From the NCBI GenBank assembly GCA_026770585.1, contig MU646841.1:21725-44539 (forward strand): a stretch of 22,815 nt of DNA. The letters are read 5' to 3'. Positions within the stretch are counted from its first letter, which is position 1; the number at the start of each line of letters is the position of its first letter. The notes beneath the pieces were generated by a model, which had not been told where the DNA came from, made no database searches, and saw only the letters and a list, made by a program, of their open reading frames with translations. Of this stretch, positions 3,574-21,798 are shown piece after piece. Source of the stretch: Baffinella frigidus. Taxonomy: Eukaryota; Cryptophyceae; Cryptomonadales; Baffinellaceae. A program made the translations under genes and the position numbers.

Positions 3574-3690
3574 CAGGGGTACCTCGCTCATAAGAAACCA
3601 ACGCCCCCTAGGACCTACAGTAGGACGATGCCTAGGGTCCTATGCTGGTCCTAGGGGGGGGGGGCGTTTCTTATGAGCGAGGTACCCCTG
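3574..3690 (+). mobile_element. family-A foldback MITE, tandem copy 1
   Basis: 117 bp from CAGGGGTACCTCGCTCATAA to its complement, flanked by TA at 3572-3573 and 3691-3692. The arms are complementary through most of the element. The right-hand TA is shared with the next copy. Confidence 0.93.
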
Positions 3691-3692
3691 TA

Positions 3693-3810
3693 CAGGGGTA
3701 CCTCGCTCATGAGAAACCGCGCCCCCCTAGGACCCTACAGTAGGCCTATGCCTAGGGCCCTATGGTGGTCCTAGGGGGGGCGGCGGTTTCTTATGAGCGA
3801 GGTACCCCTG
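3693..3810 (+). mobile_element. family-A foldback MITE, tandem copy 2
   Basis: Same orientation as its left neighbour and separated from it only by the shared TA 3691-3692. Right TA is 3811-3812. The core CCCTACAGTAGGCCTATG and GGGCCCTATGGTGG is typical of the family. Confidence 0.93.
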
Positions 3811-4140
3811 TAGCCATGTTGTACGACCTTAGGGCGGTGGATGCCTTGATCCCATCACCTGAAGATACCCCTTAAAGGAGTACCGACCTGATAAAAAAGC
3901 GCCTCCTCGTAGGCCTGTCTGGACCGTATCTTGCGTCCAGAGGGTACCTCCCGTCCGGAGAAAAATTTCAGACTTGACGGCGGACCAAATTCGTGACCAA
4001 ACGTCCAACGTCAAGTCAAAAGAATCTGAAAACCTTGACGTTTGACGCAAGTCAAGTCAAGTGAATCTCAAAACCTTGACGTTTGACGGCCGTCAAGTCA
4101 ATCTCCAAAAACTTGACGGCCCAGCCCTGGTCTAAAGGAT

Positions 4141-4186
4141 GCTGTGCATGTTTGGATCTTGTGACTTTCAGCACACGTGTCCTGTC
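4141..4186 (+). repeat. duplicate of the FYVE-gene upstream region (3' part)
   Basis: GCATGTTTGGATCTTGTGAC followed by ACACGTG resembles 5042-5086 (GCATGTTTGACTCTGTGAC, ACACGTGACATGG). With 2738-2828 it makes a once-continuous copy now split by the hAT-like element. Confidence 0.6.
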
Positions 4187-4310
4187 TTAGGGAAACAGCG
4201 ACACTCCGTGACCCCGAACGTGACTCTGTCGACGTTCGTAAAGATCGTGCGTTGAACGCTCCGCCTAAATCAAAGGACGCGTTCATGACAATGCCCCCCA
4301 GGCACACGGA

Positions 4311-4799
4311 AGTCGTGACCAAAAGGAAGTCTTTTACATCTGGGGATCTTTACTACACGTCGAGCAACATCTGGGGCCCGGGGATCTTTTTACACAAAGC
4401 GACTTGAATTTCTGTCGAATCCGAAGAACGGATCTGAGACTCAACGGATCTTCTTCGGAGAGGCCACTTTACTGTAGACACATGCACGCCACCCCTGCAA
4501 GGTCTTGAACAGACGCCCCGCAAATTACGAGACGCTTCGCGAATTACCCTTGTAAAATTTGACGCGAAACGTCCTGGTTTTTACATCTTGGCGCGAAGCG
4601 CCACGTGTTTGTATGGCGCGAAGCGCCTCGTGTTCGCGAACCGGTGCGTCCCGATCCGAAGAGTTCGAGATCCGTTCTTCGGGTTCGACAGAAATTCAAG
4701 TTGCTTTGTGTAAAAAGATCCCCGGGTCCCCAGATGTTGCTCGGCGTGTAGTAAATATCCCCAGATGTAAAAGATCCCTCCTTTTGGTCACGACAATTG
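4311..4799. repeat. long inverted repeat (arms about 120 bp)
   Basis: The left arm (4311-4432) and right arm (4670-4797) are imperfect reverse complements. They share CGTGACCAAAAGGA, TTTTACATCTGGGGAT, GAGCAACATCTGGGG, GGGGATCTTTTTACACAAAG and CTTGAATTTCTGTCGAA. The central 230 bases contain two GGCGCGAAGCGCC palindromes (4590-4602 and 4615-4627). No clear target duplication was found, so it may be a foldback transposon or an inverted duplication. Confidence 0.7.
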
Positions 4800-4857
4800 T
4801 CACGACGTGAAAGACCCCGGTGTACGAGCCCTCGTAGGTCCTAGATGTAAAAGACCC

Positions 4858-4950
4858 CGGTTCCTTCCACAAGGAACCGTGAGGAACCAGAATCGAATGA
4901 ACTAGAATAGTCTGTTCGATCAATTGTTCGATCTAGAATAGTCTGTTCGA
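4858..4950. repeat. small hairpin and short tandem repeat
   Basis: CGGTTCCTT and AAGGAACCG (4858-4879) form a 9-bp stem with a 4-base loop. Just after it, a GAATAGTCTGTTCGATC block occurs twice (4905-4921 and 4937-4950). Confidence 0.55.
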
Positions 4951-5274
4951 TCTGGAAGTTTCTCTCTGGCAGTAAAAATGAATCCAAGAAACTCTAGAAT
5001 GTTCCAGGTTCGGATCGAAGCGAGCGGTTTCTTGAGGATGAGGGGCATGTTTGACTCTGTGACCGTCATCAATACACGTGACATGGACCTTCACCCGGCT
5101 GTTTCTGCAAAAAACTCTGCACTCACCCAGATTCACAACCACACCCTGCTTAGTTCGTGTTCTACGCACCCCCTCGCTCGCCCTCTTCTCCTTCTGCGCG
5201 CGCATCCGACACGGTCGACTCTCCGCCCCAAGCGCCCGCACCTGCGGCGCGATAACACCCTAACACCTTCAATA

Positions 5275-6186
5275 ATGATGTCTGCTCGTACGCCTGGGTC
5301 ACCGAGTCTTCTCGAGGCGGGCTCCCGCTGCATCGTCGACGAATGCTGCACCCCCTCGACCGCCTCGACCGCCTCGACGGAGGAGGCTCGCGACGCGCGC
5401 ATCGCCGACTTGCTCACTTGGGATGTCTGTGAGCGCAAACCTCGGTCCGCGACCGTCGGCTTGCCCAAGGGCCTCTGGCAGCCGGACGCCGACGCGCCGA
5501 CCTGCTCGATGATGACGTGTGGGAAGGAGTTCAACCGCTTCTTCCGGCGGCACCACTGCCGCATGTGCGGCCGCGTCGTCTGCTCAGACTGCTCCACTGC
5601 GCGCCGGCGCGTCGTGCCAGAGACCGGGACCAAGGCCCACGACCTGCGCCTCTGTGACGCCTGTGCGACGCCCGACCTCTACGCCATGTCGCGCACCGTC
5701 ACCCCCTCGACCCCTCCGCGTTCCAGGACAATGAGCGCGCCGACGACGCCGTCCCGCCCGAACCCCGCGAAGAAGAACGTTTCAGCCACGTCGCCCTGGG
5801 GCCACGCCGCGGCGAACGTCTCAACCACATCGCTCTGGGGCTACGCCACGACCCTTCCGCGCCCCCGCTCGGAGACAAGCCTCTCCTCCCCGCTCGCGAT
5901 CCCCAACTCCCGCGCCGTCTGGCCCCCGCTTCCGGACGTCGCGATGCAGCCGCGCTCCGCCGCGTCCGACGGGGGGCGCGATGGGGCGCAAGGTGGGGGG
6001 AAAGAGGCGGCGGCGCCTCCTTCGGTCGCATGCCCCCCGGGAGAGGAGGAGGACCACGTGCTGCAGGCGGTGCGCGAAAAGTTTGCGACGACGTCGTACT
6101 ACGAGGGGCTGCACCTGCATGAGCCGGCGGCGCTCGATCTGTTGTTGCGGTGCGCGGCGGATCAGATGCGGTCTAGGGAGATGTGA
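5275..6186 (+). CDS. FYVE-type zinc finger protein, 303 aa
   Basis: A single-exon frame with strong GC-ending codons. FYVE fingers bind phosphatidylinositol 3-phosphate on endosomal membranes through the basic RRHHCR motif. Here the finger spans residues 68-130: WQPD at 68, RRHHC at 91-95, CG at 98, the VVCSDC pair, and RLCDAC at 125-130. All eight expected cysteines are present. The first pair is CX4C (C77, C82) instead of the usual CX2C. Residues 131-255 are Ser/Pro/Thr/Ala-rich and probably disordered. Residues 257-303 look structured and end in AADQMRSREM. No membrane segment or second domain is recognised. The frame is open from an ATG at 4978, but that adds 99 low-quality residues lying in duplicated flanking DNA, so the ATG pair at 5275/5278 (context CAATAATGATG) is preferred. 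Likely a phosphoinositide-dependent membrane-trafficking adaptor; its exact role is unknown. Confidence 0.85.
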   Translation: MMSARTPGSPSLLEAGSRCIVDECCTPSTASTASTEEARDARIADLLTWDVCERKPRSATVGLPKGLWQPDADAPTCSMMTCGKEFNRFFRRHHCRMCGRVVCSDCSTARRRVVPETGTKAHDLRLCDACATPDLYAMSRTVTPSTPPRSRTMSAPTTPSRPNPAKKNVSATSPWGHAAANVSTTSLWGYATTLPRPRSETSLSSPLAIPNSRAVWPPLPDVAMQPRSAASDGGRDGAQGGGKEAAAPPSVACPPGEEEDHVLQAVREKFATTSYYEGLHLHEPAALDLLLRCAADQMRSREM

Positions 6187-6246
6187 GGTGTGTGAGCAAG
6201 GGGAAATGTATTTCTACTCGTGGTGTGAGGCGAGTGCGAGGATGTA

Positions 6247-6414
6247 GTGGGTGTGTGTATGTGTGTGTGTGTGTGTAAATGTGTCCCGAGTGTCTGTCTG
6301 TGTCTGTCTGTGTCTGTCTGTGTCTGTGTCTGTGTGTCTGTGTCTGTCTGTGTGGAGAGAGATGGAGAGCTGCAAGAGTATGTGTTTCTGCCTGTGTCTG
6401 TGTCTTTATGTCTG

Positions 6415-6447
<33 letters not shown>

Positions 6448-6469
6448 GAGAGAGCTGCAAGTGTGTCTG

Positions 6470-6504
<35 letters not shown>

Positions 6505-6539
6505 GTGAGCGAGAGAGAGGGAGAGAGAGGGAGAGAGAA

Positions 6540-6582
<43 letters not shown>
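6247..6582 (+). repeat. compound microsatellite downstream of the FYVE gene
   Basis: Successive tracts: (TG)n, (TGTC/TGTG)n, (TC)n at about 6417-6446, (TCTG)n at about 6470-6503, and (GA)n at about 6505-6582. Long frames rich in Cys/Val or Ser/Leu here are repeat artefacts. Confidence 0.9.
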
Positions 6583-6585
<3 letters not shown>

Positions 6586-6665
6586 GAACCTGCTGATGCG
6601 CTGCGCGGCGGACCAGATGCGGTCTAGGGAGATGTGCGGACTGCGAGAGGATGTATCTGGTGGGT
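6583..6665 (+). pseudogene. duplicated 3' tail of the FYVE gene, copy 1
   Basis: Encodes LNLLMRCAADQMRSREM, nearly the same as the FYVE protein end (LDLLLRCAADQMRSREM). The terminal TGA has become TGC, so the frame runs on a few codons. The nucleotide similarity continues into the former 3' flank (GCGAGAGGATGTA, GGTGGGTGT). It looks like a copy produced along with the microsatellite expansion. Confidence 0.8.
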
Positions 6666-6720
6666 GTTGACAGGTGTCTCTGTGTGTACACCCCCAAGCC
6701 ACCTAAGGATGTAGGGTGTA

Positions 6721-6847
6721 CAGGAGTACCTCGCTCATGAAAAACCAAGCCTGACAAAATCCCCCCTAGGATCACCATGGGACCCCACGCATGGGTCTAC
6801 TGTAGGGTCCTAGGGGGGGGCGGTTTCTAATGAGCGAAGTACCCATG
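6721..6847 (-). mobile_element. family-A foldback MITE, divergent, first of a pair
   Basis: Flanked by TA 6719-6720 and 6848-6849. Ends are CAGGAGTACCTCGCTCAT and ATGAGCGAAGTACCCATG, slightly decayed. An internal extra block (CCTGACAAAAT) makes it 127 bp. The right TA is shared with the next copy, which has opposite orientation. Confidence 0.85.
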
Positions 6848-6849
6848 TA

Positions 6850-6966
6850 CAGGGGTACCTCGCTCATAAGAAACCGCACCCCCCTAGGACCCTACAGTAG
6901 GCCTATGCCTAGGGCCCTACGGTGGTCCTAGGGGGGGGGCAGTTTCTTATGAGCGAGGTACCCCAG
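6850..6966 (+). mobile_element. family-A foldback MITE, second of a pair
   Basis: 117 bp with TA at 6848-6849 and 6967-6968. The left end is intact and the right end is CCCCAG instead of CCCCTG. Confidence 0.92.
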
Positions 6967-7012
6967 TAGGATGCGAAAGGTGGGAAAGATCCGTGACGAG
7001 AAGTCTCATGTA

Positions 7013-7113
7013 TCCCTGGAGTGGCCAGTAGGCTCATACGCCCTACGGTAGGACCCTAGGACCTGTCTAGGACCTCTTGGCCTTCAAATTTGACGGCATG
7101 GCCACTTGAGGGA
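7013..7113 (+). mobile_element. family-B MITE, first copy of a duplicated unit
   Basis: TA at 7011-7012 and 7114-7115. Ends are TCCCTGGAGTGGCC and GGCCACTTGAGGGA. It is followed by a 36-bp spacer (TGGATGAGGCCCCC...) that recurs after the next B copy. Confidence 0.85.
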
Positions 7114-7153
7114 TATGGATGAGGCCCCCAGGATTTGATACCCGAAGGGAATA

Positions 7154-7372
7154 TCCCTTAGGTGGCGTGTACAGGGGTACCTCGCTCATAAAAAAACGCG
7201 CCTCCCTAGGATCCTACCGTAGGCCTATGCCTAGGGCCCTATGGTGGTCCTAGGGGGGGGGGCATTTCTTATGAGCGAGGTACCCCTGTAGGCGCATACG
7301 CCCTACGGTAGGGCCCTGGGACCTGCCTAGGGCGAGTTAGGGTGAATATTCGCCCAATGGGCACTTGAGGGA
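7154..7372 (+). mobile_element. family-B MITE split by a family-A insertion
   Basis: The left part (7154-7169, TCCCTTAGGTGGCG) and right part (from 7289, GGCGCATACGCCCTACGGTAG to GGGCACTTGAGGGA) make one B element once the A copy at 7172-7288 is removed. It is followed at 7373-7408 by the same spacer seen after the previous B copy, so B plus spacer was duplicated in tandem. Confidence 0.85.
7172..7288 (+). mobile_element. family-A foldback MITE nested in a B element
   Basis: 117 bp with TA 7170-7171 and 7289-7290. The neighbouring tandem copy of B (7013-7113) lacks it and serves as an approximate empty site. Confidence 0.92.
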
Positions 7373-7408
7373 TGGATGAGGCCCCCGGGGTTTGATAGCT
7401 GAAGGGCA

Positions 7409-7458
7409 TAGGGGTACCTCGCCCATAAGAAAGTGCCTCCTCCTAGGACCCTACAGTA
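7409..7458 (+). mobile_element. family-A MITE, left-end fragment
   Basis: Starts TAGGGGTACCTCGCCCATAA and stops in the core at CCCTACAGTA. The right half is missing and the terminal CA is lost. Confidence 0.75.
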
Positions 7459-7484
7459 CATGTACAGGGGTATCTTGGCTACCC

Positions 7485-7580
7485 CATAAGTGGCGAGTAG
7501 GCTCATACTCCCTACTGTAGGGCCCTAGGACCTGCCTAGGACCTCTTGGGGGTCAATTTTGACCCCCTCGCCACTTAAGA
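7485..7580 (+). mobile_element. family-B MITE with decayed ends
   Basis: Interior is typical (GTAGGCTCATACTCCCTACTGTAGG, a GGTCAATTTTGACC palindrome, GCCACTTAAGAG). The outer TCCC/GGGA ends are degenerate and sit between family-A end fragments (a TACAGGGGTATC block near 7472 and a GGGGTACCTCGCC fragment at 7584-7626). Confidence 0.75.
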
Positions 7581-7627
7581 GCTGGGGGTACCTCGCCTAC
7601 AAGAGAGTGTCTCCTCCTGGGACCCCA

Positions 7628-7744
7628 CAGGGGTACCTCGCTCATAAGAAACGACCACCCCCATAGGACCACCGTAAGGCCCTAGGCATAGGCCTACTGT
7701 AGGGTCCTAGGGGAATGCGGTTTCTTATGAGCGAGGTACCCCTG
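7628..7744 (-). mobile_element. family-A foldback MITE
   Basis: 117 bp. Right flank is TA (7745-7746); left flank is CA, a decayed TA adjoining the preceding A fragment. The core reads in the reverse orientation (ACCACCGTAAGGCCCTAGG). Confidence 0.9.
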
Positions 7745-7746
7745 TA

Positions 7747-8259
7747 CAGAAAAGGGGTATCTGGGCTAAGAAAACAGAACTTAAGAACACAGACCGGATT
7801 TGGGCCGCCCATTTTCTTGATTTAGTACCACACGGTTGACTAAATCTTGCGTCTAGTCAATCCTTTGGTACTCCTTTAAGAAAACAGACACCGACCGATG
7901 CCGGAACACTCGTGTTCTTATCCCTTAATAAGGCGGAATATTGGTTTCTTCCCGAGTTGGGAGCGGTTCTACAGCTGCCAACTCGGGAAGAAACCATTTC
8001 TTCCCGATTGACTTTGCGAGTGTTTTTATCTGGCTTTTTGCGCCGCAGGCTGCCCGATTTCGGGCGACATCTCGTACAAGTGCCCGAGAAACGTAAAACC
8101 CGCAATCGAAAGTCAATCGGTCCGAAGAGAGAATGTTCGGCCGCGGTAAAATCACTTGTAAAGTCAATCGGGGAAGAAAAGCGTGTACTGAGCGGCGCAG
8201 GCCAAGTGAGAGCTTCCTTCCGTGAATCCTTCGAAACACGTGTGTTCCCAGGATGCACG
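7747..8259. repeat. unassigned region rich in inverted repeats
   Basis: A perfect 19-bp inverted repeat (7942-7960 and 7978-7996, TGGTTTCTTCCCGAGTTGG) with a 17-base loop would form a strong hairpin. A second pair, TTCTTCCCGATTGACTTT (7999-8016) and its near-complement (8160-8178), encloses 140 bases. An AGGGGTATCTGGGCTA block at about 7754-7769 recurs inverted at 8676-8691, so 7754-8691 could be one larger TIR element. Open frames on both strands here mirror one another through these palindromes and are not called as genes. Confidence 0.55.
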
Positions 8260-8261
8260 TA

Positions 8262-8361
8262 TCCCTTAAGTGACCAACGGGGGAATAATCGCCCGTGGAA
8301 GCCCTAGGCAGGTCCTAGGGCCCTACGGTAGGGCGTATGAGCCTACTGATCACTTAAGGGA
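8262..8361 (-). mobile_element. family-B MITE
   Basis: TA at 8260-8261 and 8362-8363. Ends are TCCCTTAAGTGACC and GATCACTTAAGGGA. The GTCAAATTTGAC block is replaced by GGGGGAATAATCGCCC. Confidence 0.85.
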
Positions 8362-8363
8362 TA

Positions 8364-8649
8364 GGAGGCACGCTTTCCTTGAAGCCACCATTTCAATTGC
8401 GGTTCCGATTTTGGAATTTGGTCACAGGGTGGGTTGGTGCAATTTTCAGCAATGCACCACTCGGGAACCCAGGTTTTATGGGGAAATGTTGTCACTTTTT
8501 CAGGCCGAAAATTCGCTAGCTCCATTCTCCGGGGGGGTAAGCGATCTGTGGGCGTTCTTGATTTTGATTTGAGAAACTTGCTGAAGGTGGATTTTCCTTT
8601 AAAAATTAAGAAACTTTTGCCCTGAAAAACGCCTTTTTCTTATCAGATC
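8364..8649. other. no recognisable feature
   Basis: Unique-looking DNA of ordinary composition between a B element and A-element ends. A 100-codon frame starts within the B element and is not supported. Confidence 0.35.
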
Positions 8650-8763
8650 CGTTTCTTATGAGCGAGGTACCCCTGTAGCCCAGATACCCCTCGCCTATGC
8701 CTAGCTAGGGCCCTATGATGGTCCTAAGGGGGGGAGCGGTTTCTTATGAACGAGGTACCCCTG
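8650..8763 (+). mobile_element. two right-end fragments of family-A MITEs
   Basis: 8650-8675 is only the terminal GTTTCTTATGAGCGAGG...CCCCTG followed by TA. After AGCCCAGATACCCC, a second piece (8691-8763) starts in the core (CGCCTATGCCTAG) and runs to CCCCTG and TA 8764-8765. Confidence 0.8.
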
Positions 8764-9599: not shown

Positions 9600-9717
9600 C
9601 AGGGGTGCCTCGCGCATAAGAAACCGCCCCCACCCCTAGGAACACCGTAGGGTGCTAGGCAGGGTCTCACTGTAGGGTCCTAGGGGGGGGCGGTTTCTTA
9701 GGAGCGAGGTACCCCTG
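9600..9717 (-). mobile_element. family-A foldback MITE
   Basis: 118 bp with TA 9598-9599 and 9718-9719. It is inserted in the duplicated FYVE 3' flank within CTCTGTGTGTA. The same motif at 6680-6689 is uninterrupted. Confidence 0.9.
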
Positions 9718-9856: not shown

Positions 9857-12800
9857 AGGCCTAGTTTAGGGTCAGGGTTTAGGGTTTAGGGGTTGGGGGT
9901 TAATGGGGTTTAAGGTTTAGGGTGTAGGGTTCAGGATTTAGGTTGTAGTGTTTAGGGTTGAGGGTTGAGGGTTGAGGGTTGGGGGTTTAGGTTTTTGGGT
10001 TTTGGGTTGAGGGTTTTTGGTTTAGGGTTTTGGGTTTATGGTTTAGGGTTTATGGTTTATGGTTTAGGGTTTAGGGTTTAGGGTTTAGGGTTTAGGGTTT
10101 GAGGTTTGGGGTTTAGGGTTTCGGGTTTGGGGTTTGGGGTTCAGGGTTTATAGCTTTAGGGTTTACGATTTAGGGTTTAGGGTTTAGGGTTTAGGATTGA
10201 GGGTTTAGGGTTTAGGGTTTGGTGTTTAGAGGTTCAGGGGTTTAGGGTTTAGGGATTTCGGGTTGAGGGTTGAGGGTTTAGGGTATAGGATTCAGGGTTT
10301 TATGGTTTAGGGTTTATGGTTTAGGGTTCAGTGTTTAGGGTTTAGGGTTTGGGGTTTAGGGTTTGGGGTTCAGGGTTTATTGTTTTAGGGTTTACGGTTT
10401 AGGGTTTAGGGTTTAGGGTTTAAGGTTTGGGGTTTGGGGTTTGGGGTTTAGGGGTTTGAGGTTTAGGGATTTCGGGTTGAGGGTTCAGGGTTTAGGGCAT
10501 AGGATTCAGGGTTTTATGGTTTATGGTTTATGATTTAGGGTTGAGTGTTTAGGGTTTAGGGTGTAGGGGTTAGGGTTTAGGGTTTAGGGTTTCTGGTTGA
10601 GGGTTGAGAAGATAATCGGTTTGAGGTTGAGGGTTCAGGGTTCAGGGTTTAGGGTTTAGGGGGTAGGGTTTGGGGTTTAGGGTTTAGGGTTTAGACATTA
10701 GGTTTTAGGGCTTGGGGTTTAGGTTGTAGGGTTCAGGGTTCAGGGTTTAGGGTTCAGGGTTGAGGGTTGAGGGTTTCAACTTTATGGTTTTGGGTTGAGG
10801 ATTTGGAAGTTTGGAGTTTTGAGTTTGGGATTCAGAGTTTAGGGTTTTGGATTTTGGGTTTTGGGTTCAGGGTGTAGGGTTTAAGGTTTAGGGTTTAGGG
10901 TTTAGGGTTTAGGGTTTAGGGTTTAGNNNNNNNNNNNNNNNNNNNNNNNNNNNNNNNNNNNNNNNNNNNNNNNNNNNNNNNNNNNNNNNNNNNNNNNNNN
11001 NNNNNNNNNNNNNNNNNNNNNNNNNNNNNNNNNNNNNNNNNNNNNNNNNNNNNNNNNNNNNNNNNNNNNNNNNNNNNNNNNNNNNNNNNNNNNNNNNNNN
11101 NNNNNNNNNNNNNNNNNNNNNNNNNNNNNNNNNNNNNNNNNNNNNNNNNNNNNNNNNNNNNNNNNNNNNNNNNNNNNNNNNNNNNNNNNNNNNNNNNNNN
11201 NNNNNNNNNNNNNNNNNNNNNNNNNNNNNNNNNNNNNNNNNNNNNNNNNNNNNNNNNNNNNNNNNNNNNNNNNNNNNNNNNNNNNNNNNNNNNNNNNNNN
11301 NNNNNNNNNNNNNNNNNNNNNNNNNNNNNNNNNNNNNNNNNNNNNNNNNNNNNNNNNNNNNNNNNNNNNNNNNNNNNNNNNNNNNNNNNNNNNNNNNNNN
11401 NNNNNNNNNNNNNNNNNNNNNNNNNNNNNNNNNNNNNNNNNNNNNNNNNNNNNNNNNNNNNNNNNNNNNNNNNNNNNNNNNNNNNNNNNNNNNNNNNNNN
11501 NNNNNNNNNNNNNNNNNNNNNNNNNNNNNNNNNNNNNNNNNNNNNNNNNNNNNNNNNNNNNNNNNNNNNNNNNNNNNNNNNNNNNNNNNNNNNNNNNNNN
11601 NNNNNNNNNNNNNNNNNNNNNNNNNNNNNNNNNNNNNNNNNNNNNNNNNNNNNNNNNNNNNNNNNNNNNNNNNNNNNNNNNNNNNNNNNNNNNNNNNNNN
11701 NNNNNNNNNNNNNNNNNNNNNTAATCGGTTTGAGGTTGAGGGTTGAGGGTTCAGGGTTTAGGGGGTAGGGGGTAGGGTTTGGGGTTTAGGGTTTAGGCTT
11801 GAGGCATTAGGTTTTAGGGCTTGTGGTTTAGGTTGTAAGGTGTTGGGTTTAGGGTTCAGGGTTTAGGGTTTAGGCGTTAGGGTTGAGGGTTTCAACTTTA
11901 TGGTTTTGGGTTGAGGATTTGGAAGTTTGGTGTTTGGGGTTTGGGATTCAGAGTTTAGGGTTTTGGATTTTGGGTTTGGGGTTCAGGGTTTAGGGTTGAA
12001 GGTTGAGGGTTTAGGGTTTAGGGTTTAGGGTGCAGGATGCAGGGTGTAGGGCTTGGGGTCTGGGGTTAAGGGTTTGAGGTTTAGGGTTTGGGGTTTAGGG
12101 TTTAAGGTTGAGGGTTTAGGTTTGAGGGTTGAGGGTTGAGGGTTGAGGGTTTAGGGTCCAGGGTTTAGGGTTTAGGGTCCAGGGTTTTTGGTGTTAGGGT
12201 TTAGGGTTTATGGTTTAGGGTTGAGAAGATAATCGGTTTGAGGTTGAGGGTTGAGGGTTTAGGGTTTAGGGAGTAGGGGGTAGGGGGTAGGGTTTAGGGT
12301 TTAGGGTTTAGGCATTAGGTTTTAGGGTTTGGGGTTTAGGTTGTAGGGTTCAGGGTTTAGGGTTCAGGGTTCAGGGTTAAGGGTTTAGGGTTCAGGGTTG
12401 AGGGTTTCAACTTTATGGTTTTGTGTTCAGGATTTGGAAATTTGGTGTTTGGGGTTTGGCATTCAGAGTTTAGTGTTTTGGATTTTGGGGTTTTGGGTTC
12501 AGGGTTTAGGGTTTAAGGTTGAGGGTTGAGGGTTTAGGGTTTAGGGCTGAGGTTCCAGGGTGTAGGGTTTTGGGTCTGGGGTTAAGGGTTTGAGGTTTTG
12601 GGTTTGGGGTTTAGGGTTTGGGGTTTGGGGTTTTGGGTGTTGGGTTTAGGGTTTAGGGTTTAGGGTTTGTGGTTTGTGGTTTAGGGTTTAGGGTTTAGGT
12701 TTGAGGGTTTAGGGTTTAAGGTTTTGGGTTTAGAGTCCAGTGTTAAGGGTTTAGGGTCCTGGGTTTATGGTTTAGTGTTTAGGGTTTATGGTTTAGGGTT

Positions 12801-13775
12801 GAGAAGTTAATCGTTTTGAGGTTGAGGGTTGAGGGTTCAGGGTTTAGGGGGTAGGGGATAGGGTTTGGGGTTTAGGGTTTAGGAATTAGGGTTTAGGGTT
12901 TGGGGTTTAGGTTTTAGGGTTTGGGGTTTAGGTTGTAGGGTTCAGGGTTTCGGGTTTAGGCGTTAAGGTTCAGGGTTTAGGGTTGAGTGAGGGTTTAAAC
13001 TTTATGGGTTTGGGTTGAGGATTTGGAAGTTTGGAGTTTGGGGTTTGGGATTCAGAGTTTAGGGTTTTGGATTTTGGGTTTGGGGTTCAGGGTTTAGGGT
13101 TGAAGGTTTAGGGTTTAGGGTTTAGGGTTTAGGGTGCAGGTTGCAGGGTGTAGGGTTTTGGGTCTGGGGTTAAGGGTTTGAGGTTTTGGTTTTAGGGTTT
13201 TGGGTTTGGGGTTTTGGGTTTTGGGTTTAGGGTTTAGGGTTTAGGGTTTCGGGTTTGTGGTATGGGGTTTAGGGTTCAGGGTTTTTGGTTGAGGGTTGAG
13301 GGTTTAGGGTTTAGGGTTTAGGGTCCAAGGTTTAGGGTTTAGGTTGTAGGGGTTAGGGTTTAGGGTCTGGGTTTAAGGGTTTGAGTTTGAGGGTTGAGGG
13401 TCTGGTGTTAGGATTTAGGGTTTAAAGTTTGAGGTTTTGGGTTTAGGGTTTGGGGTTTAGGGCTTAGGGTCTAGGGTTTAGGGTTTAGGGTTTAGGGTTG
13501 AGGGTCCAGGGTTGAGGGTTTGGGGTTGAGGGTTTAGGGTCCAGGGTTGAGGATCCTGGGTTTAGGGTCTGGGGTCAAGAGTTTGAGGTTTAGGGTCTAG
13601 GGTTTAGGGTTCAGGGTTTAGTTTTTAGGGTGTAGGGTGTAGGGTTTGAGGGTTGAGGGTTTAGGTTGAGGGTTTAGGGTTTAGGGTTTAGGGTACAGGT
13701 TTCAGGGTTCATGGTGTAGGATCTGGGGTTTAGGGTTCAGGGTTGAGGGTTTATTGTTCATGGGTTTGTGTTAAG
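9857..13775 (+). repeat. interstitial telomere-like TTTAGGG array with higher-order repeats
   Basis: Almost 4 kb of degenerate TTTAGGG, TTGAGGG, TTCAGGG and TTTGGGG heptamers, G-rich on the plus strand. Two marker blocks recur. TAATCGGTTTGAGG is at 10613, 11722 and 12230, with a variant at 12808. A CAACTTTATGGTTTTGGGTT block is near 10777, 11893, 12408 and 12997. Spacings of about 510-590 bases, and about 1110 across the gap, imply a higher-order unit. No gene is present. Confidence 0.92.
10927..11721. other. assembly gap of 795 N
   Basis: Unresolved bases inside the telomere-like array. The marker spacing across the gap is about twice the unit length, so one further higher-order unit would fit, if the gap size is right. 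Confidence 0.98.
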
Positions 13776-13803
13776 TTTTCAGCCCCAAACCCCCACCACT
13801 TCC

Positions 13804-14080: not shown

Positions 14081-14197
14081 CAGGGGTACCTCGCTCATAA
14101 GAAACGCCCACGCCTCTAGGATCACCATAGGGCCCCAGGCATAGGCCTACTGTAGGGTCCTAGGAGGAGGCGCTTTCTTATGAGCGAGGTACCCCTG
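14081..14197 (-). mobile_element. family-A foldback MITE
   Basis: 117 bp. Left flank TA (14079-14080); right flank TG, a decayed TA. TGATA occurs on both sides (CTGATA / TGATAG), so a longer duplication cannot be excluded. Confidence 0.9.
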
Positions 14198-14243: not shown

Positions 14244-14359
14244 CAGGGGTACCTCGCTCATAAGAAACCGCCCCCCCCCAGAACCCTACAGTAGCCCTAT
14301 GCCTAGGGCCCTAAGTGGTCCTATGGGGGGGGCAGTTTCGTATGGGCGAGGTACCCATG
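14244..14359 (+). mobile_element. family-A foldback MITE with decayed right end
   Basis: 116 bp. Left flank CA; right TA 14360-14361. The right arm has CGTATGGGCGAGG and CCCATG changes. Confidence 0.87.
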
Positions 14360-14662: not shown

Positions 14663-14745
14663 CAGGCGTTCAGATCTTGGTCTTACAAGGCCTTCACGGA
14701 AGGGAACACATGGAGGCCATGTTGGTTGCGATCCGTTATCCCTTA

Positions 14746-14846
14746 ACCCTTAAGTGGCCAGTAGGCGCATACGCCCTACCGTAGGGCCCTAGGACCTGCC
14801 TAGGACCTCTTGCGGGTCAAATTTGACCGGCTGGCCACTTAAGGGT
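14746..14846 (+). mobile_element. family-B MITE, head of an inverted pair
   Basis: Flanked by TA (14744-14745, 14847-14848). Ends are ACCCTTAAGTGGCC and GGCCACTTAAGGGT. The upstream flank, CCATGTTGGTTGCGATCCGTTATCCC, recurs inverted beside the B copy at 16196-16296, so B and flank were duplicated together. Confidence 0.88.
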
Positions 14847-14848
14847 TA

Positions 14849-14943
14849 TGTGGCGAGGCCGTCAAATTTGAATTTGCCGGCGAAGAGGTCCTAGGCAGGT
14901 CCTAGTGCCCTACCGTAGGGCGTATGCGCCTACTCGCCACTTA
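14849..14943 (-). mobile_element. family-B MITE, truncated, inverted partner
   Basis: Starts TGTGGCGAGGCCGTCAAATTTG directly after the TA of the preceding copy and runs in the opposite orientation to CGCCACTTA. The terminal TCCC/GGGA is missing on both sides. Confidence 0.82.
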
Positions 14944-14999: not shown

Positions 15000-15084
15000 C
15001 AGGGATACCTCGCTGATAAGACCCCCCCCCCTCCCCCTCTAGGACCACCATAGCACCCTAGGCATGGTCCTACTGTAGGGTCCT
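15000..15084 (-). mobile_element. family-A MITE truncated on the right
   Basis: TA 14998-14999, then CAGGGATACCTCGCTGATAA through the core to CTGTAGGGTCCTA. The right arm is absent, and an apparent coding frame follows immediately. Confidence 0.85.
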
Positions 15085-15324
15085 AAGCAGGCCCAACAGC
15101 TCCAAAACGCAGTCCCTCCAAGTGTCCACATGGAGATGGAACCAGCAAGAACGCTGCTGGCCGCGATGCGGGGGGCGCTGGGCCCAGGCTCAACTCGGGA
15201 GCCCCCCGACAGCACATCTTCCAAGCGGCTCAAGGCATTGCTTGGGCATGCATCCCCCTCCCCCTCCCTCGTTGCTGCAGTTCTCGGCCCTTCCCCCCTC
15301 CACAAAAACACTTTAGGTCCTTAA
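15085..15324 (+). CDS. gene fragment, unknown, ends in a dispersed repeat
   Basis: Codons AAG CAG GCC CAA CAG begin where the truncated family-A element stops (TCCTAAG, acceptor-like). About 79 residues follow to TAA 15322-15324. The first in-frame ATG is 15130. Motifs include EPARTLLAAMRGALGPG and TSSKRLKALLGHA. Most codons end in G or C, and the composition is that of a disordered Ala/Pro/Ser-rich protein. The last codons run into repeat G (from about 15313), so the stop is not the original one. It may be the remnant of an exon cut off on both sides by repeats. No family is recognised. Confidence 0.35.
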   Translation, partial: KQAQQLQNAVPPSVHMEMEPARTLLAAMRGALGPGSTREPPDSTSSKRLKALLGHASPSPSLVAAVLGPSPLHKNTLGP

Positions 15325-15394
15325 GGTTTTTCGAGCTCCCAACATAGGCGGACACCGGAACTGGTTCTGCAGGATGGCCCTGCTTCCTTTCGTG
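15313..15394 (+). repeat. dispersed repeat G, copy
   Basis: TTTTTCGAGCTCCCAACATAG, GCGGACACCGGAACTGGTTCT and a CCCTGCTTCC block. It is nearly identical over about 45 bases to the next copy 110 bases downstream. Confidence 0.85.
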
Positions 15395-15422
15395 CGCTGG
15401 CCAAGTCCTAACAGATTGGCTC

Positions 15423-15492
15423 TAGGTTTTTCGAGCTCCCAACATAGGCGGACACCGGAACTGGTTCTGTAGAAAGGCCATGCTTCCTTTCC
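15423..15492 (+). repeat. dispersed repeat G, tandem copy
   Basis: Same start (TAGGTTTTTCGAGCTCCCAA) and GGAACTGGTTCTG core as the preceding copy, and like the right-arm copy at 21385-21480. Confidence 0.85.
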
Positions 15493-15648
15493 GGGATTTT
15501 TTGACCAGGGAATTCCCTGTTTTCTTCATTTTCGGCCTGGGCATAGCCACTAGGGGGGGGGGGGTTCTTATGAGCGAGGTACCCCTGGAAGCCTTCTCCT
15601 GGGCACACTTTTCACGCCGGGACAGACCTTTATTAATACGTACGTCTA

Positions 15649-15764
15649 CAGGGGTACCTCGCTCATAAGAAAACGCCGCTCCCAGGACCCTACAGTAGCC
15701 CTGCGCCTAGGCCTCTATGGTTGTCCTAGGGGGTGGGCGGTTTCTTATGAGCGAGGTACCCCTG
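15649..15764 (+). mobile_element. family-A foldback MITE in tandem unit 1
   Basis: TA 15647-15648 on the left; the right end is followed by GA instead of TA. A right-end fragment of another A copy precedes the unit (about 15551-15587). Confidence 0.9.
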
Positions 15765-15825: not shown

Positions 15826-15941
15826 CAGGGGTACCTCGCTCATAAGAAAACGCCGCTCCCAGGACCCTACAGTAGCCCTGCGCCTAGGCCTCTATGGTTG
15901 TCCTAGGGGGTGGGCGGTTTCTTATGAGCGAGGCACCCCTG
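15826..15941 (+). mobile_element. family-A foldback MITE in tandem unit 2
   Basis: TA 15824-15825 and 15942-15943. Immediately right, TATCCCTTAACTGGCG is a family-B end fragment (15944-15957) sharing the same TA. Confidence 0.9.
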
Positions 15942-16075: not shown

Positions 16076-16195
16076 CTTTCCGCCGCAGCGCACCGGCGTG
16101 TCCGTCCTAGTGGCTACACGTCTTGATCGTTTGACCAGGCCGTAATCTGGTACAAATCCACTGGTTTTACAGTGAATTCACTACCTCGAGACGTA

Positions 16196-16296
16196 TCTCT
16201 TAAGTGACCAGGCCGTCAAATTTGACGGTCAAGAGGTCCTAGGAAGGTCCTAGGGTCCTACAGTAGGGCGTATGAGCCTACTGGCCACTTAAGGGT
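16196..16296 (-). mobile_element. family-B MITE
   Basis: TA 16194-16195 and 16297-16298. Ends are TCTCTTAAGTGACC and GGCCACTTAAGGGT. The right flank AAGGGATAACGGATCGCAACC is the inverted match of the left flank of 14746-14846. Confidence 0.87.
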
Positions 16297-16372
16297 TAAG
16301 GGATAACGGATCGCAACCAACATGGCGCCCGCCACACCTTTGTTAAATGTATTATCGTACATCTATCCCTTA

Positions 16373-16497
16373 CAGGGGTACCTCGCTCATCAGAAACAGC
16401 CCCCCCACACACCACCATAGGGCCCTAGGCATAGGCCTGCTGTAGGGTCCTAGGGGGGCGCAGTTTCTTATGAGCTAGGTACCCCTGTAAATGGCGC
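16373..16497 (-). mobile_element. family-A foldback MITE with matching empty site
   Basis: TA 16371-16372 and 16498-16499. Flanks CGTACATCTATCCCT and AATGGCGCCCGCCACACC are joined with a single TA at 17537-17571, the unoccupied paralogous site. The element is 125 bp with a CACACACCACC variation in the left inner arm. Confidence 0.94.
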
Positions 16498-16539: not shown

Positions 16540-16651
16540 CAGGGGTGCCTCGTTCATAAGAAACCTCCTCCCCATAGGACCCTACAGTAGGCCTATGGCT
16601 TACGGTGGTCCTGGGGGGGGGGGGCATTTTCGTACGAGCGAGGTACCCCTT
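16540..16651 (+). mobile_element. family-A MITE, decayed right end
   Basis: TA 16538-16539. Left end CAGGGGTGCCTCGTTCATAA. The right arm reads TTTTCGTACGAGCGAGG and stops at CCCCT followed by TCA rather than GTA. Confidence 0.83.
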
Positions 16652-16707: not shown

Positions 16708-16824
16708 CAGGGGTACCTCGCTCATAAGAAACCGCACCCCCCGTAGGACCACCATAGGGCCCTAGGCATAGGCCTACTGTAGGGTCCTAGGGGGGGGCGG
16801 TTTCTTATGATCGAGGTACCCCTG
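16708..16824 (-). mobile_element. family-A foldback MITE
   Basis: 117 bp with TA 16706-16707 and 16825-16826. Nearly perfect, one of the least diverged copies. A short GA-rich tract (16669-16700) precedes it. Confidence 0.93.
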
Positions 16825-16855: not shown

Positions 16856-17325
16856 CAGGGGCACCTCAACTATAATTGTCATAAGGAACGGTCGCCATAA
16901 GGAACAGGGCGTTTTTGGTGTCTGAGTTCCTTAATAAATAAGGAACGGAGGGCGGGCGTTCCCACTGAGTTCCTTAATAATTAAGGAACGGAGGGCGGGC
17001 GTTTCCACGGAGTTTCTTAATAAACAAGGAACGGAAGGTCGAATTTCGTCAAATCCTTGGAAGGATGAGTGGTAGGAACCTCGAAACCCTCAAAGATCGG
17101 TGGTAGGGACCTCAAAACCCAGAAAAATGCCAAAATTTGCTGAGGTACTTCACGTTTCGGGCAAAAAGTTCCTTAATAATTAAGGAACGGAGGGCGGACG
17201 TTTCCACGGAGTTCCTTAATAATCAAGAAACGGATGGCGGGCGTTTCCACGGAGTTCCTCGATAATTAAGGAACGGAGGGCGGGCGTTTTCAGATCTCCG
17301 GTTCCTTCAGAACGAGGTACCCCTG
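16856..17325 (+). mobile_element. 470-bp relative of family A with internal 43-bp palindromic repeats
   Basis: TA 16854-16855 and 17326-17327. Ends CAGGGGCACCTC and GAGGTACCCCTG match the tips of family A, but the interior is unrelated. Inside, GTTCCTTAATAATTAAGGAAC-type palindromes begin at 16926, 16969, 17012, 17168, 17211 and 17254. That is two blocks of three with an exact 43-base period, each followed by GGAGGGCGGGCGTTTCCACGG-like spacers. It may be the longer parent form from which short A copies derive, or an independent element using the same tips. Confidence 0.85.
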
Positions 17326-17536
17326 TACCAAGCGCACCGGCGCTTATTGACACTTATTGACTTTATTCGAAAGAGAAATGCACGGTGCAGAAATGAGGCG
17401 AGCTTAGGAAAATACTCGGGTAATCATCCGGTTGAATCCTAAGTCAAGAAACTGCCACTACCCATATTTGAGGGTTCCTAGGATTCCATCCCCGCTCTTT
17501 TCACGTCGAGAGACTTTTATTCAAGTTATTTCACAC

Positions 17537-17571
17537 GTACATCTATCCCTTAAATGGCGCCCGCCACACCA
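17537..17571 (+). repeat. empty paralogue of the 16373-16497 insertion site
   Basis: CGTACATCTATCCCT-TA-AATGGCGCCCGCCACACC is continuous here, with one TA. The upstream 17496-17545 stretch (TTTTCACGTCGAGAGAC, TTTATT) also resembles the spacer of the 177-bp unit at 15606-15645. Confidence 0.9.
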
Positions 17572-17653
17572 AGCGCGGCGCGCCACGGACTCAGGGCTGA
17601 GTGAGAGGGAAAGTGCGTTTATTACGGATGGCAACCAACATGACCACCATGTA

Positions 17654-17699
17654 CAGGGGTGCCTCGCTCATAAGAAAACGCCCGCCCCTAGGACCACCA
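17654..17699 (-). mobile_element. family-A MITE, left half only
   Basis: TA 17652-17653, then CAGGGGTGCCTCGCTCATAA to CCTAGGACCACCA. The right half is missing and GC-rich, apparently coding DNA follows. Confidence 0.85.
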
Positions 17700-18420: not shown

Positions 18421-18673
18421 AGTTTTACTAGAAAAACTACATGATGACGGACTGAAGGGCAGGGAAGCTTTGCAGGGGAGTTTTTACTACAGATAACACG
18501 TCCGTTCGAAAGACATGTGTTGGGACGTGTTAAGATTTATATGTGACTCAACACGTGGCGCTTCGCGAAAAACACCAAGTGCAGGGGAAAGTAAGTAAAA
18601 AACGGGACGCTTCGTGTCATGTTTTTTACATATGTGGATTGGCCACAGTGGTGTAGGTACCAGGGTATCCTTA

Positions 18674-18912
18674 TCCTCTAGCCGGTTTTATGGATTATAA
18701 GGCCTTATTCCCTTTAGAACATATTTTTTGGCCTGTAGTAAAGATCTCAAGATTTCATTGCAGCTCGAATTTTTTTAGCAGATTCTGGAGCTGACGGCCA
18801 AATCTCGAGGATCTGCGCTTTCAGATTTGAAAAAGGACAAAAATTAGGGGCGAAATTTCGCAGCAAACCCGAAATATAGATGGACACTTTATTTTTCAAA
18901 CCGGCTAGAGGA
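18674..18912. mobile_element. small TA-flanked TIR element (family E)
   Basis: A perfect inverted repeat TCCTCTAGCCGGTTT / AAACCGGCTAGAGGA bounds 239 bases and is flanked by TA (18672-18673 and 18913-18914). The AT-rich interior has no coding potential. It appears only once in the window. Confidence 0.75.
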
Positions 18913-18937
18913 TAATCACCGGGGCGTTGGTAATAGG

Positions 18938-19032
18938 CGGGGCGTCTCTTCAAGATCTCGAAGAGGTGTGCATGAGACTTCGTTCATAGGACGTGAATGA
19001 GTCGTGAACGTCTCTTCAAGATCTTGAGGGGG
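18938..19032 (+). repeat. short direct repeat CGTCTCTTCAAGATC
   Basis: GGGCGTCTCTTCAAGATCTCGA (about 18940-18961) and AACGTCTCTTCAAGATCTTGA (about 19006-19027) are about 66 bases apart. No gene is seen between 18913 and 19440. Confidence 0.6.
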
Positions 19033-19436
19033 GGGGCACGCCGCGTCTAGAGGAGTGTGTGGATCATTGTAGAATGCGAAAAGAGCTGAGTCAGTGTGTC
19101 CAACTGTTTCCATGCCCGACAAAAATTCGACAAAATCAAATCTCCCCTTCTTTCCGCGTGGTTTTTTAAAAACTCCCCTGGAATTCGATGTCCTGATCCT
19201 AACCGTCATATGCGACCCGATTTTCCGGTCGTAAAAAACAAAAACTTGAAAAGCGGTGAAAAACCGCAACGCTCCAAAAATGAAAAACCCGGAACATGCC
19301 CGTTTAGACGTTCTAGACGAATCCAGGTGTTTCTATTGGTCATCACGACTTGATAGCGACCACGGCGGGGTCGTCGCGTGGGGCATCGTGGGGAGTGTTC
19401 GCTGCTCGCGGCCCCATGAGATTCCGATGAGGAGAG

Positions 19437-19540
19437 ATGGGGAACAACCTGCATGCAGCTGGGGAACAAATTTGCATGCTGGGTCAGCTGGGGAGCAATT
19501 TGCATGCTGGGGGGATCACGTGGCGCGAAGCGCCACGTTC
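19437..19540 (+). repeat. GCATGC-containing minisatellite followed by a palindrome
   Basis: Three variants of a TGGGGAACAA-TTTGCATGC unit lie in 19437-19510, then a perfect ACGTGGCGC-GAA-GCGCCACGT hairpin at 19518-19538. Its core, GGCGCGAAGCGCC, also occurs at 4590 and 4615. Confidence 0.75.
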
Positions 19541-19599
19541 AGAGGGGTGTACAGAACATGACATGTTGAGCTTGTGGAATGTGAACATGTTCTAGAGCC

Positions 19600-20169
19600 G
19601 AGCAAATTACCGATATGGGCCCCTATTTTTTTTTACTTACGGATATGGGCCCCCCGCGCAAAATGGGCCCCCAGCCGGGAATCTCCGACATTACTACACA
19701 CATCACGTGTGTCCAGACAGTTGCGACCCCAAACAAGGCTCTCTTCGTAGGATCATATTTTCCCCATCAGATACCTCGACGGGCCTTGTGTCTCGTGCAC
19801 GAGACACAACCCGAGACGCTGGACGGCACCCCCCGCCCCGCTGCATACCTGAGCCGAGGCCGAGACCCAGCTGTCTGCGGCCCATCCAGAATGGAAAAAA
19901 CATGGCGCGTAGCGCCATGTTTTTTCCTTGGCGCGCTGGACGACACCCCTCACCTCCCGGGCCTCCGGCCCGCCGGGCCGGAGGCCCGGCTGAGGCAGGA
20001 GCTTTAATTGCAGGGTCGCGTCCAATTACAATCACATGTAAGAGTCACGCGGCCAATTTCCAGTGTATACAAGGACACGACAAATATCTCGGGGCCCATT
20101 TTGCGTGGGGGGCCCATTTCTGTTTGGGTTTACTACCGGTACATAGGGGCCCATATCGGTATTTTTCTC
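19600..20169 (+). mobile_element. MULE-like non-autonomous element with 10-bp target duplication
   Basis: 570 bp. Termini GAGCAAATTACCGATATGGG and the complement of GAGAAAAATACCGATATGGG, with inverted similarity extending about 70 bases inward (GGGCCCCTAT, GCGCAAAATGGGCCC). TTCTAGAGCC is directly repeated at 19590-19599 and 20170-20179. A 9-11-bp duplication with long G-starting TIRs is characteristic of Mutator-like elements. The interior is dominated by perfect palindromes: 19786-19809 (24 bp), 19893-19927 (16-bp stem, 3-base loop) and 19957-19989 (16-bp stem, 1-base loop). Open frames over them are not considered genes. Confidence 0.82.
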
Positions 20170-20179
20170 TTCTAGAGCC

Positions 20180-20659
20180 ACTTTCAAGTGTTATCACGTC
20201 CGGACACATGCGTTGTGAACGGACGTGTTATCCTGTAGTCACCTTTCGGATGTTTCGGACACAAGGGGAAGTTGTAATTCCGCCCGTCGAGTGCCCCTTG
20301 TAAGACTGAAAGTGTCCTTCTATTGGAAACGTTTGAGAAACGGGGACGTCACGTGATGCATAACTCCTTTGTGGCGAGACGTAAAATGAGCAACCACCAG
20401 GAAACCACGGGTCACATGAAGTTTCCCCTGCGTCTGTACAGTAGTAATCTCCACTAGCTTCTTCTTGTAGTGATCTCCACTAGCTTCTTCAGCCCCCGCG
20501 GCTGTGCTCACCACGGCGTTTCGTTCCAACGGAGCAAGGAACGTGCGTGCTGCTGCACAACGTTCATTAAAGCTCCAATAGCCCCAATAGCTGAAGAAAC
20601 AGCTGATGCAACTCTCCTGCAAAATTCTACCTCCGCGCGTGCGTCCGACCGACGCCTGC
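20180..20659. other. no supported gene; short direct repeat
   Basis: Only a duplicated ATCTCCACTAGCTTCTTC (about 20447-20464 and 20473-20490) stands out. Confidence 0.4.
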
Positions 20660-21067
20660 TCGACCAGCATGGCGTGCTTCCTCGTCCAAACACCCGCCTC
20701 TTCACATCAGCGTTCACCTCGTTCGTGCACCGCGGATCCTTGGGGGTCGAATCCCCCCGCCGTCGCCCGGCCCAACGCCGCCCCGCCTTCTGGCGCAAGC
20801 CGCATGGCCTACTCTAGCGACCCTGGCCTCCAAGACACGCCTCCCGAGGTGAGGGCGGCGACTTCGAGGGCGGCGACTTCGATGGCGGCGGCCAGCTGTC
20901 TCCGTCTTGCGGTTCTTCTGGGGACGATCGCGACGGCGAGGGTCGACTGCGGGCACGGCCCCGGTCTCCACCAGACGCAAAGCAGCTTCAGGGCTCTGCA
21001 GTCCCCCCACCAGCCGTTCCCGCCCCGGCGCGTGCAGCTCTGCGGGTCTGCCTGTCTTCGGCCTTAG
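20606..21067 (+). CDS. GC-rich open frame conserved in both arms (right copy), unknown
   Basis: A 153-codon plus-strand frame. From about residue 68 (SSDPGLQDTPPE) to the end LCGSACLRP it aligns with the minus-strand frame at 2071-2592. An Ala/Ser-rich stretch is expanded here by a 15-bp duplication (GGCGGCGACTTCGAG, about 20864-20890). An overlapping frame with GGDFEGGDFDGGGQ is conserved too, so the coding frame is not settled. No domain or targeting signal is recognised. Confidence 0.22.
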   Translation: MQLSCKILPPRVRPTDACSTSMACFLVQTPASSHQRSPRSCTADPWGSNPPAVARPNAAPPSGASRMAYSSDPGLQDTPPEVRAATSRAATSMAAASCLRLAVLLGTIATARVDCGHGPGLHQTQSSFRALQSPHQPFPPRRVQLCGSACLRP

Positions 21068-21133
21068 GCGCCTTTCGGGCTGCGTGTAAACTCTGTTCAA
21101 TAATGAAGCTCCATGGACCGCCATCGCTGGGAT

Positions 21134-21300
21134 GGAGAGAGATTGGTATTGTATTATTGCCAAACAACCAGCGCCAGCACCGCACAAGCCCTACGCGGTG
21201 TGCTACTTACTGTACCCCGTGTCTGCCGTTCTTACGAGCTGTTTCCGCATGGTTTCGATCTCCATCTCCTTCATTGAAGGGATAGGAGTTGAGAGTGAAG
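21134..21300 (+). repeat. dispersed repeat F, copy 4
   Basis: AGAGAGATTGGTATTGTATTA, CCAAACAACCAGCGCCAGC, TACTGTACCCCGTGTCTGCC and a CATGGTTTCGATCTCCATCTC block. It pairs with 1795-2010. Confidence 0.8.
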
Positions 21301-21384
21301 AGCCCCCATCTTCAAGTGCGAGCCTCGGTGCTCTCCTCAACCCTCACGTGGCCTCTGTTACCTGCTTCAGAGGGGTAGAGGTCC

Positions 21385-21480
21385 TTTAAATCCTTCAGGT
21401 TCTTCGAGCTCCCAGCATAGGCGGACACTGGAACTGGTTCTGCAAGAAAGCCCTGCTTCCATTCGGATCGCATCAAGCCC
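21385..21480 (+). repeat. dispersed repeat G, right-arm copy
   Basis: TTCTTCGAGCTCCCAGCATAG, GCGGACACTGGAACTGGTTCT, CCCTGCTTCCATTCGGATCGC. The uninterrupted form of the rearranged left-arm copy. Confidence 0.82.
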
Positions 21481-21532
21481 CCCGGTGCAGAGGATCGCAG
21501 CAGAGGGGTTGACATGGGGGTTTGAGGGCTTA

Positions 21533-21633
21533 TCCCTTAAGTGGCGAGTAGGCTCATACGCCCTACTGTAGGGCCCTAGGACCTGCCTAGGACCTCTTGG
21601 CGGTCAAATTTGACAGCCTCGCCACTTAAGGGA
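21533..21633 (+). mobile_element. family-B MITE, right-arm copy
   Basis: TA 21531-21532; right flank TT. Ends are TCCCTTAAGTGGCG and CGCCACTTAAGGGA. It occupies the same place as 1421-1521 in the left arm, so this insertion predates the arm duplication. Confidence 0.88.
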
Positions 21634-21681
21634 TTGTTTGGGGCGCGTTGGGGCCGTCTCGCCGCCGCGCGTCAGCCGTTA

Positions 21682-21798
21682 CAGGGGTACCTCGCTCATA
21701 AGAAACCGACCCCCCCTAGGACCCTACAGTAGGACCATGCCTAGGGCCCTATGGTGGTCCTAGGAGGGGGGCAGTTCCTTATGAGCGAGGTACCCCTG
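21682..21798 (+). mobile_element. family-A foldback MITE, only in the right arm
   Basis: 117 bp with TA 21680-21681 and 21799-21800. The left arm lacks it at the matching position (about 1378-1395), so the insertion is younger than the arm duplication. Confidence 0.93.

Follow-up and report, generated by a model that had tools for sequence, protein, structure and literature searches.

A TA-inserting, near-palindromic miniature element family in Baffinella frigidus and a core that it shares with elements of unrelated ends

A 22,815-nucleotide stretch of the genome of the cryptophyte Baffinella frigidus (GenBank assembly GCA_026770585.1, contig MU646841.1, positions 21,725 to 44,539; hereafter, the window; 53.5% G+C) holds many copies of a short, nearly palindromic repeat that we call family A. 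Family A is, with near certainty, a miniature inverted-repeat transposable element (MITE) that duplicates the dinucleotide TA at its target. It is dispersed throughout the genome, has conserved tips and a narrow length distribution centered on 117 bp, and shows no sign of a coding role. The best overall explanation, to which we assign a probability of roughly 0.6, is a TA-inserting MITE moved in trans, most likely by a pogo/Tigger transposase. Its 19-bp core, CCTAGGRCCCTACNGTAGG, also occurs in elements with unrelated tips.

Fifteen window copies, spanning 3574-3690 to 21682-21798, have paired, inward-facing tips and measure 112–127 bp, with 7 of the 15 exactly 117 bp long (Table 1). They are 78.7–97.5% identical to their own consensus and, as befits a MITE, combine a short, uniform length with 24-bp terminal inverted repeats that are ~96% identical. 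Because the copies at 15649-15764 and 15826-15941 are units of one 177-bp tandem duplication, the window contains 14 independent family A copies; the counts exclude a 16th tip pairing, a broken copy of 588 bp at 15000-15587. All A-like intervals together number 22 and cover 2,139 bp. An earlier note, made from the letters of this DNA, had listed about 14 full copies plus fragments with a common tip and core, and its coordinates, tip, and core were all recovered in the 15 paired copies. No transposase lies within family A, whose members are too short to encode one. The window has 32 open reading frames (ORFs) of 100 aa or more, of which 27 were domain-scanned (the 5 simple-repeat ORFs were excluded), and FYVE was the sole domain found.

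How does family A meet its insertion sites? TA directly adjoins the left end of 13 and the right end of 12 of the 15 window copies, and both ends of 10. At a window TA frequency of 0.047, a right-side TA in at least 12 of 15 copies has a chance probability of 5e-14. The five non-TA flanks (CA, TG, CA, GA, and CA) affect one side only in each copy, and the GA marks where the two units of the 177-bp tandem duplication join. Two pairs of neighbors have a single TA in common (3691-3692 and 6848-6849), as expected if a copy lands in a TA adjoining another copy. Three copies have unoccupied paralogues within the window, in which the filled site equals the empty site plus one TA: copy 7172-7288 lies inside a member of family B (described below), and eight other window places cross its insertion point with one TA, while copies 15826-15941 and 16373-16487 occupy two separate TAs within a single repeat, which is present without an insertion at 17535-17575. 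We also sampled 20 regions of 10 kb, all on contigs C1-C3 and picked for exact family A tips. There, 60 tip pairs (60–180 bp) carried TA on the left in 47, on the right in 52, and on both sides in 41, and no flank preference other than TA was found among them. Some observations weigh against this picture. Most copies lack a clean empty site, and the counterpart of copy 21682-21798, at 1332-1432, fails to align at the junction. An automated empty-site test across all sampled regions gave junction-crossing matches at 22 sites of A (15 without gaps) and 8 of B (4 without gaps). This test was noisy, and its matches were not counted because many are simple-repeat matches. The flanks, the three empty sites, and the 60-pair sample nonetheless bear out the TA target duplication that had been proposed, and TA is kept at most insertion sites. 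One copy, 14081-14197, has TGATA directly at both flanks rather than a bare TA pair, a single case that may be due to chance.

Genome-wide pattern scans (382,457,362 bases in 1,364 contigs, with the reversed pattern as control) recovered family A tips with at most two mismatches 23,113 times (11,525 + 11,588; control, 0/0). The modal length of sampled copies is again 117 bp, and the consensus of 57 of them (100–135 bp) is identical to the window consensus. In these 57 copies, the ends are 96.1%, the core 91.6%, and the spacer 81.8% identical, with a median divergence of 8.5%. When the 40-residue translation of one copy was searched against proteins, 151 of 155 candidates came back as matches, and the following counts refer to the best 120 of the 151. 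Among these 120, the only two that bear an organism name belong to Baffinella frigidus. Upstream flanks in this set form 96 clusters out of 102, so most translated copies are separate insertions. The codon after the tip peptide SEVPL is Y (TA + C/T) in 47 of 73 internal cases (background, 3.6%); of the other 26 residues, 20 (H, Q, C, and W) are one transition from a TA codon, and 10 further proteins terminate right after SEVPL. Y also precedes RGTS in 104 of 117 cases, which is not independent evidence, because the query itself started with Y. Among longer proteins (275–875 aa) with the MITE peptide there were three candidates, none of which scored. The exact tip and core were absent from viral and prokaryote contigs (0 in each), translated-MITE pattern matches in 1 viral and 58 prokaryote stretches were not confirmed, and one blastn search of plasmids gave no match to family A. 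A literature search by strings, peptides, and topics found no publication naming the repeat.

Which transposase might have moved family A? TA duplication combined with short tips indicates the Tc1/mariner superfamily, in which family A very probably belongs. Its resemblance at the letter level further suggests a pogo/Tigger type, which we think somewhat likely: after the TA, 13 of 15 tip bases are identical to the tip TACAGTGGTACCTCGG of the Tigger-like MITE_109 of Rhodnius prolixus, given as TACAGTGGTACCTCGGTTTTCGAA (PMC4678618). Other Tigger-like Rhodnius tips match family A at 10, 10, 10, and 7 bases, and Tc1-like, mariner, and IS630 tips at 4–9. The earlier note had judged the CAGGGG tips not to be the usual ones, which the match to MITE_109 contradicts. 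A pogo review names TA as the usual target except in Fot types (PMC7386202). We read family A as a nonautonomous DNA transposon that inserts at, and duplicates, TA. In the mechanism we propose, a transposase acting in trans, most likely one of the pogo/Tigger type within Tc1/mariner, would recognize its 24-bp ends, chiefly the outer 12 bp CAGGGGTACCTC. Family A has reached ~11,500 copies' worth of tips, presumably by cut-and-paste movement in trans; most sampled copies are old, and it also inserts beside itself and inside other MITEs.

Several results speak against a pogo/Tigger origin. The assignment is drawn from the TA and the tip, and one published tip is weak evidence by itself. Profile searches of the genome returned 0 candidates for DDE_1 (PF03184) and 1 candidate, not scored, for HTH_Tnp_Tc5 (PF03221); the controls of both searches were silent, so absence is unproven. 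DDE_3 was likewise not found (0), in a search whose controls did respond, nor was DDE_Tnp_4 (0), and the FYVE profile does match in the same genome (n = 11). Of the large ORFs in the sampled regions, 10 of 72 were scanned, without a transposase domain. The autonomous partner with the same tips for which the earlier note had suggested a search was thus not found by four Pfam transposase profiles; such a partner could have been lost or have diverged, its gene could be interrupted by introns, or it could lie beyond the sequence searched. Alternatively, family A could be a TA-inserting MITE, of Tc1/mariner or another TA-duplicating group, from outside the pogo/Tigger branch, with a tip likeness due to chance or convergence. 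The missing DDE_1 and HTH_Tnp_Tc5 domains would fit such an origin, as would family B, which inserts at TA too, with a tip that matches each of the 12 Rhodnius tips at no more than 3 of 13 bases. However, chance or convergence must then produce a 13/15 match to a Tigger-like MITE when three more Tigger-like tips reach 10 and the others 4–9, and DDE_3 and DDE_Tnp_4 are missing as well; we regard this origin as rather unlikely, if still a serious contender.

The core links family A to elements with unrelated tips: B, E, and, more loosely, F and G. Family B elements (~101 bp, tips TCCCTTAAGTGGC, TA-flanked) number nine in the window, one of them interrupted and another partial. In the window, TA adjoins 8/8 on the left and 5/8 on the right; in the sample plus window, 17 of 27 pairs have it at both ends. 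Across the genome, the B tip was counted 10,504 times (control, 1), and one B lies nested in another B, with a single TA at the rejoined outer site. Between the A and B consensuses, 17 of the 19 core bases agree. None of 200 dinucleotide shuffles and 1 of 200 palindromic shuffles did as well in this ungapped test; the gapped A–B alignment is weaker, with scores as high in 2 of 2000 and 25 of 2000 shuffles, respectively. All core matches in the window fall in A or B. With at most one mismatch, the core is found at 21,965 places genome-wide (control, 0) and 120 times in the sample plus window (none in 60 letter-shuffled patterns). At up to two mismatches, the latter set gives 144 merged core places, labeled by the best nearby tip, loosely, with up to one third of the tip mismatched: 85 A, 3 A variant, 41 B, 5 E, 4 F, and 6 with none. 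Because the sample was picked for A tips, these proportions are not genome-wide estimates. Family E (161–164 bp, ends CCACACAGCGG) carries the core and looks unlike a TA inserter, since TA flanks both sides in none of seven pairs and one side in one. G comprises two of the six tip-unlabeled places (173–175 bp); the status of F (no tip pairs) and of G (two copies, ends unclear) as complete elements is not established.

Conversely, A tips occur on interiors that lack the core. Element C, 470 bp long, has tips CAGGGGCACCTC and GAGGTACCCCTG, TA on both sides, and a subrepeat interior, and the H elements (132–218 bp, fetched with one DNA query) have A tips, and all six of those inspected are flanked by TA at both ends. 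By ORF listing alone, without a profile search, the H elements contain no transposase. Among 188 tips of the form CAGGGGTACCTC in the sample plus window, TA is present at 155 and, by the filter used, an adjacent core is absent at 20, some of which have core variants. The core is therefore not required for A-type tips. In addition, ~940 bp at 7749-8692 lie between the arms of a perfect 16-bp inverted repeat, AGGGGTATCTGGGCTA, and their right part includes an A tip on an interior without the core.

Why should one core lie under several kinds of tips? Our preferred account is that it was passed among palindromic elements by recombination or nested insertion. A functional alternative, which we consider doubtful, is that the core is a cis module (a protein-binding site or a hairpin) that aids several transposases and is kept by selection. 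The 95.7% identity of the core 19-mer among window copies, above the 82% of the spacer, is in keeping with selection, as is its presence under A, B, and E tips at so many places; the authors who described coral CMITEs proposed such a role for their own core (PMC2872659). C and H, however, have A tips and TA without the core, the arms do not covary (see below), and common descent gives similarity without function. Equally tentative is the idea of a modular MITE set that swaps tips and cores, with the core as a portable cis-acting module. In such a set, several unrelated tips, among them that of E with its different way of inserting, have one core in common, unrelated interiors have the same tips, and the core would let a miniature pass to one transposase after another and survive the loss of each autonomous partner. 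Tips normally define a MITE family, and interiors may vary. A core under unrelated tips at ~22,000 places bears on how MITEs are born and on whether their interiors function, in a protist genome that has thousands of miniatures and no partner recognized so far. The genome offers natural comparisons (tips without the core and the core without those tips), which makes the question accessible to computational tests.

How do these elements compare with known systems? The closest precedent found for the shared core is the coral CMITEs: at ~100 bp, they form families with different tips but one interior, as A, B, and E do, and occur in tandem arrays (PMC2872659). They differ in their TTAA target, in the piggyBac motif CC[C/T]T that all their tips carry, and in an estimated ~1600 copies (PMC2872659). 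Those piggyBac features are absent here, where the target is TA, the tips are CAGGGG and TCCCTT and unrelated, E lacks TA flanks, and core places number ~22,000. MITE_109 shares with family A the TA target and the tip, and its genome, too, has yielded no progenitor of greater length, but it is 300–647 bp long with partial Tigger sequence inside (PMC4678618), whereas family A is 117 bp, nearly palindromic, and without a recognizable transposon remnant. BogoMITE of the ciliate Blepharisma is likewise a protist pogo/Tigger MITE, with 8,000 copies, but it measures ~389 bp, targets TAA/TTA, and has another tip and a known autonomous partner (PMC9942856). Family A itself starts with CAGGGGTACC and is GC-rich. 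In this it is unlike the plant Stowaway MITEs, which are short, TA-targeting, and high in copy number but AT-rich, with a different tip.

The earlier note's observation that the whole element folds back on itself holds for the family A consensus, which forms 52 pairs at −103.5 kcal/mol. Strong as this fold is, a family of hairpin RNA genes kept by selection on structure is highly improbable: among 15 copies, one pair changed on both sides (2.9 in shuffles); among 57, 18 cells did (14.7 in shuffles, with 53 of 300 shuffles reaching 18); and no Rfam family reached the cut-off in the window. Arms without compensatory change give no support to a maintained hairpin RNA, and the palindrome looks like an inherited, decaying shape. 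Spread as a local satellite, through tandem and segmental duplication, finds some encouragement in the 177-bp duplication and in half-element arrays elsewhere but is rejected as the main mode by the 23,113 tips genome-wide, the differing flanks of translated copies, and TA duplication at empty sites, so that family A is not confined to this locus. The arrays, at L035:1151-1500 and L039:1228-1467, repeat family A half-elements in tandem at periods of 50 bp and 60 bp; the 50-bp unit stops at the core-internal TA, a pattern expected if the element had repeatedly inserted into itself at that point or had been duplicated in tandem.

Table 1. Features of the window and family E loci of the sampled regions (coordinates of family B copies take in the flanking TA positions)
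Feature	Length (bp)	Position	Strand	Remarks
Family A copy	117	3574..3690	+	one TA (3691-3692) common with next copy
Family A copy	118	3693..3810	+	
Family A copy	127	6721..6847	-	one TA (6848-6849) common with next copy
Family A copy	117	6850..6966	+	
Family A copy	117	7172..7288	+	within family B element; paralogous empty sites
Family A copy	117	7628..7744	-	left flank CA
Family A copy	118	9600..9717	-	
Family A copy	117	14081..14197	-	right flank TG
Family A copy	116	14244..14359	+	left flank CA
Family A copy	116	15649..15764	+	unit 1 of 177-bp tandem duplication; right flank GA
Family A copy	116	15826..15941	+	unit 2 of tandem duplication; paralogous empty site 17535-17560
Family A copy	115	16373..16487	-	paralogous empty site 17536-17575
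Family A copy	112	16540..16651	+	right flank CA
Family A copy	117	16708..16824	-	
Family A copy	117	21682..21798	+	
Family A fragment		7410..7458	+	left half
Family A tip		8651..8675	-	terminates longer coreless element
Family A fragment		8693..8763	-	
Family A fragment		15000..15085	-	
Family A fragment		15550..15587	-	one end
Family A fragment		17654..17699	+	
Core in A copy		3726..3744	+	example
Core in B copy		21562..21580	-	example
Family B MITE		1419..1523	-	
Family B MITE		7011..7115	+	
Family B MITE		7152..7374	+	interrupted by A copy 7172-7288
Family B MITE		7480..7584	+	
Family B MITE		8260..8363	-	
Family B MITE		14744..14848	+	nested within another B
Family B element		14849..14943	-	outer interrupted element, larger part
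Family B MITE		16194..16298	-	
Family B MITE		21531..21635	+	
Element C	470	16856..17325	.	TA both sides; subrepeat interior without core
Family E		L009:8116-8276		
Family E		L013:7029-7190		
Family E		L015:6535-6696		
Family E		L021:2856-3016		

Other features share the window with these elements. A 402-aa ORF at 4978-6186 (+) contains a FYVE zinc finger (Pfam E 1.4e-16), and its nearest named relatives, at 52% and 51% identity, are in Baffinella frigidus. The G+C content of the window is also close to the 53.9% given for Baffinella sp. CCMP2293 in a paper that calls strain CCMP2045 conspecific (PMC9756366). The ~4 kb at 9860-13780 consist of degenerate TTTAGGG-like repeats, in which a run of N at ~10927-11721 is an assembly gap (by eye), and runs of TTGAGGG/CCCTCAA were seen by eye at both window ends. 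ORFs 2071-2592 (-) and 20606-21067 (+) have a long, near-identical peptide in common, and because they lie on opposite strands, the window ends seem to hold an inverted duplication. Finally, inverted ACCGATATGGGCCCC ends, noted by eye ~550 bp apart at 19609-20160, possibly mark another inverted-repeat element.

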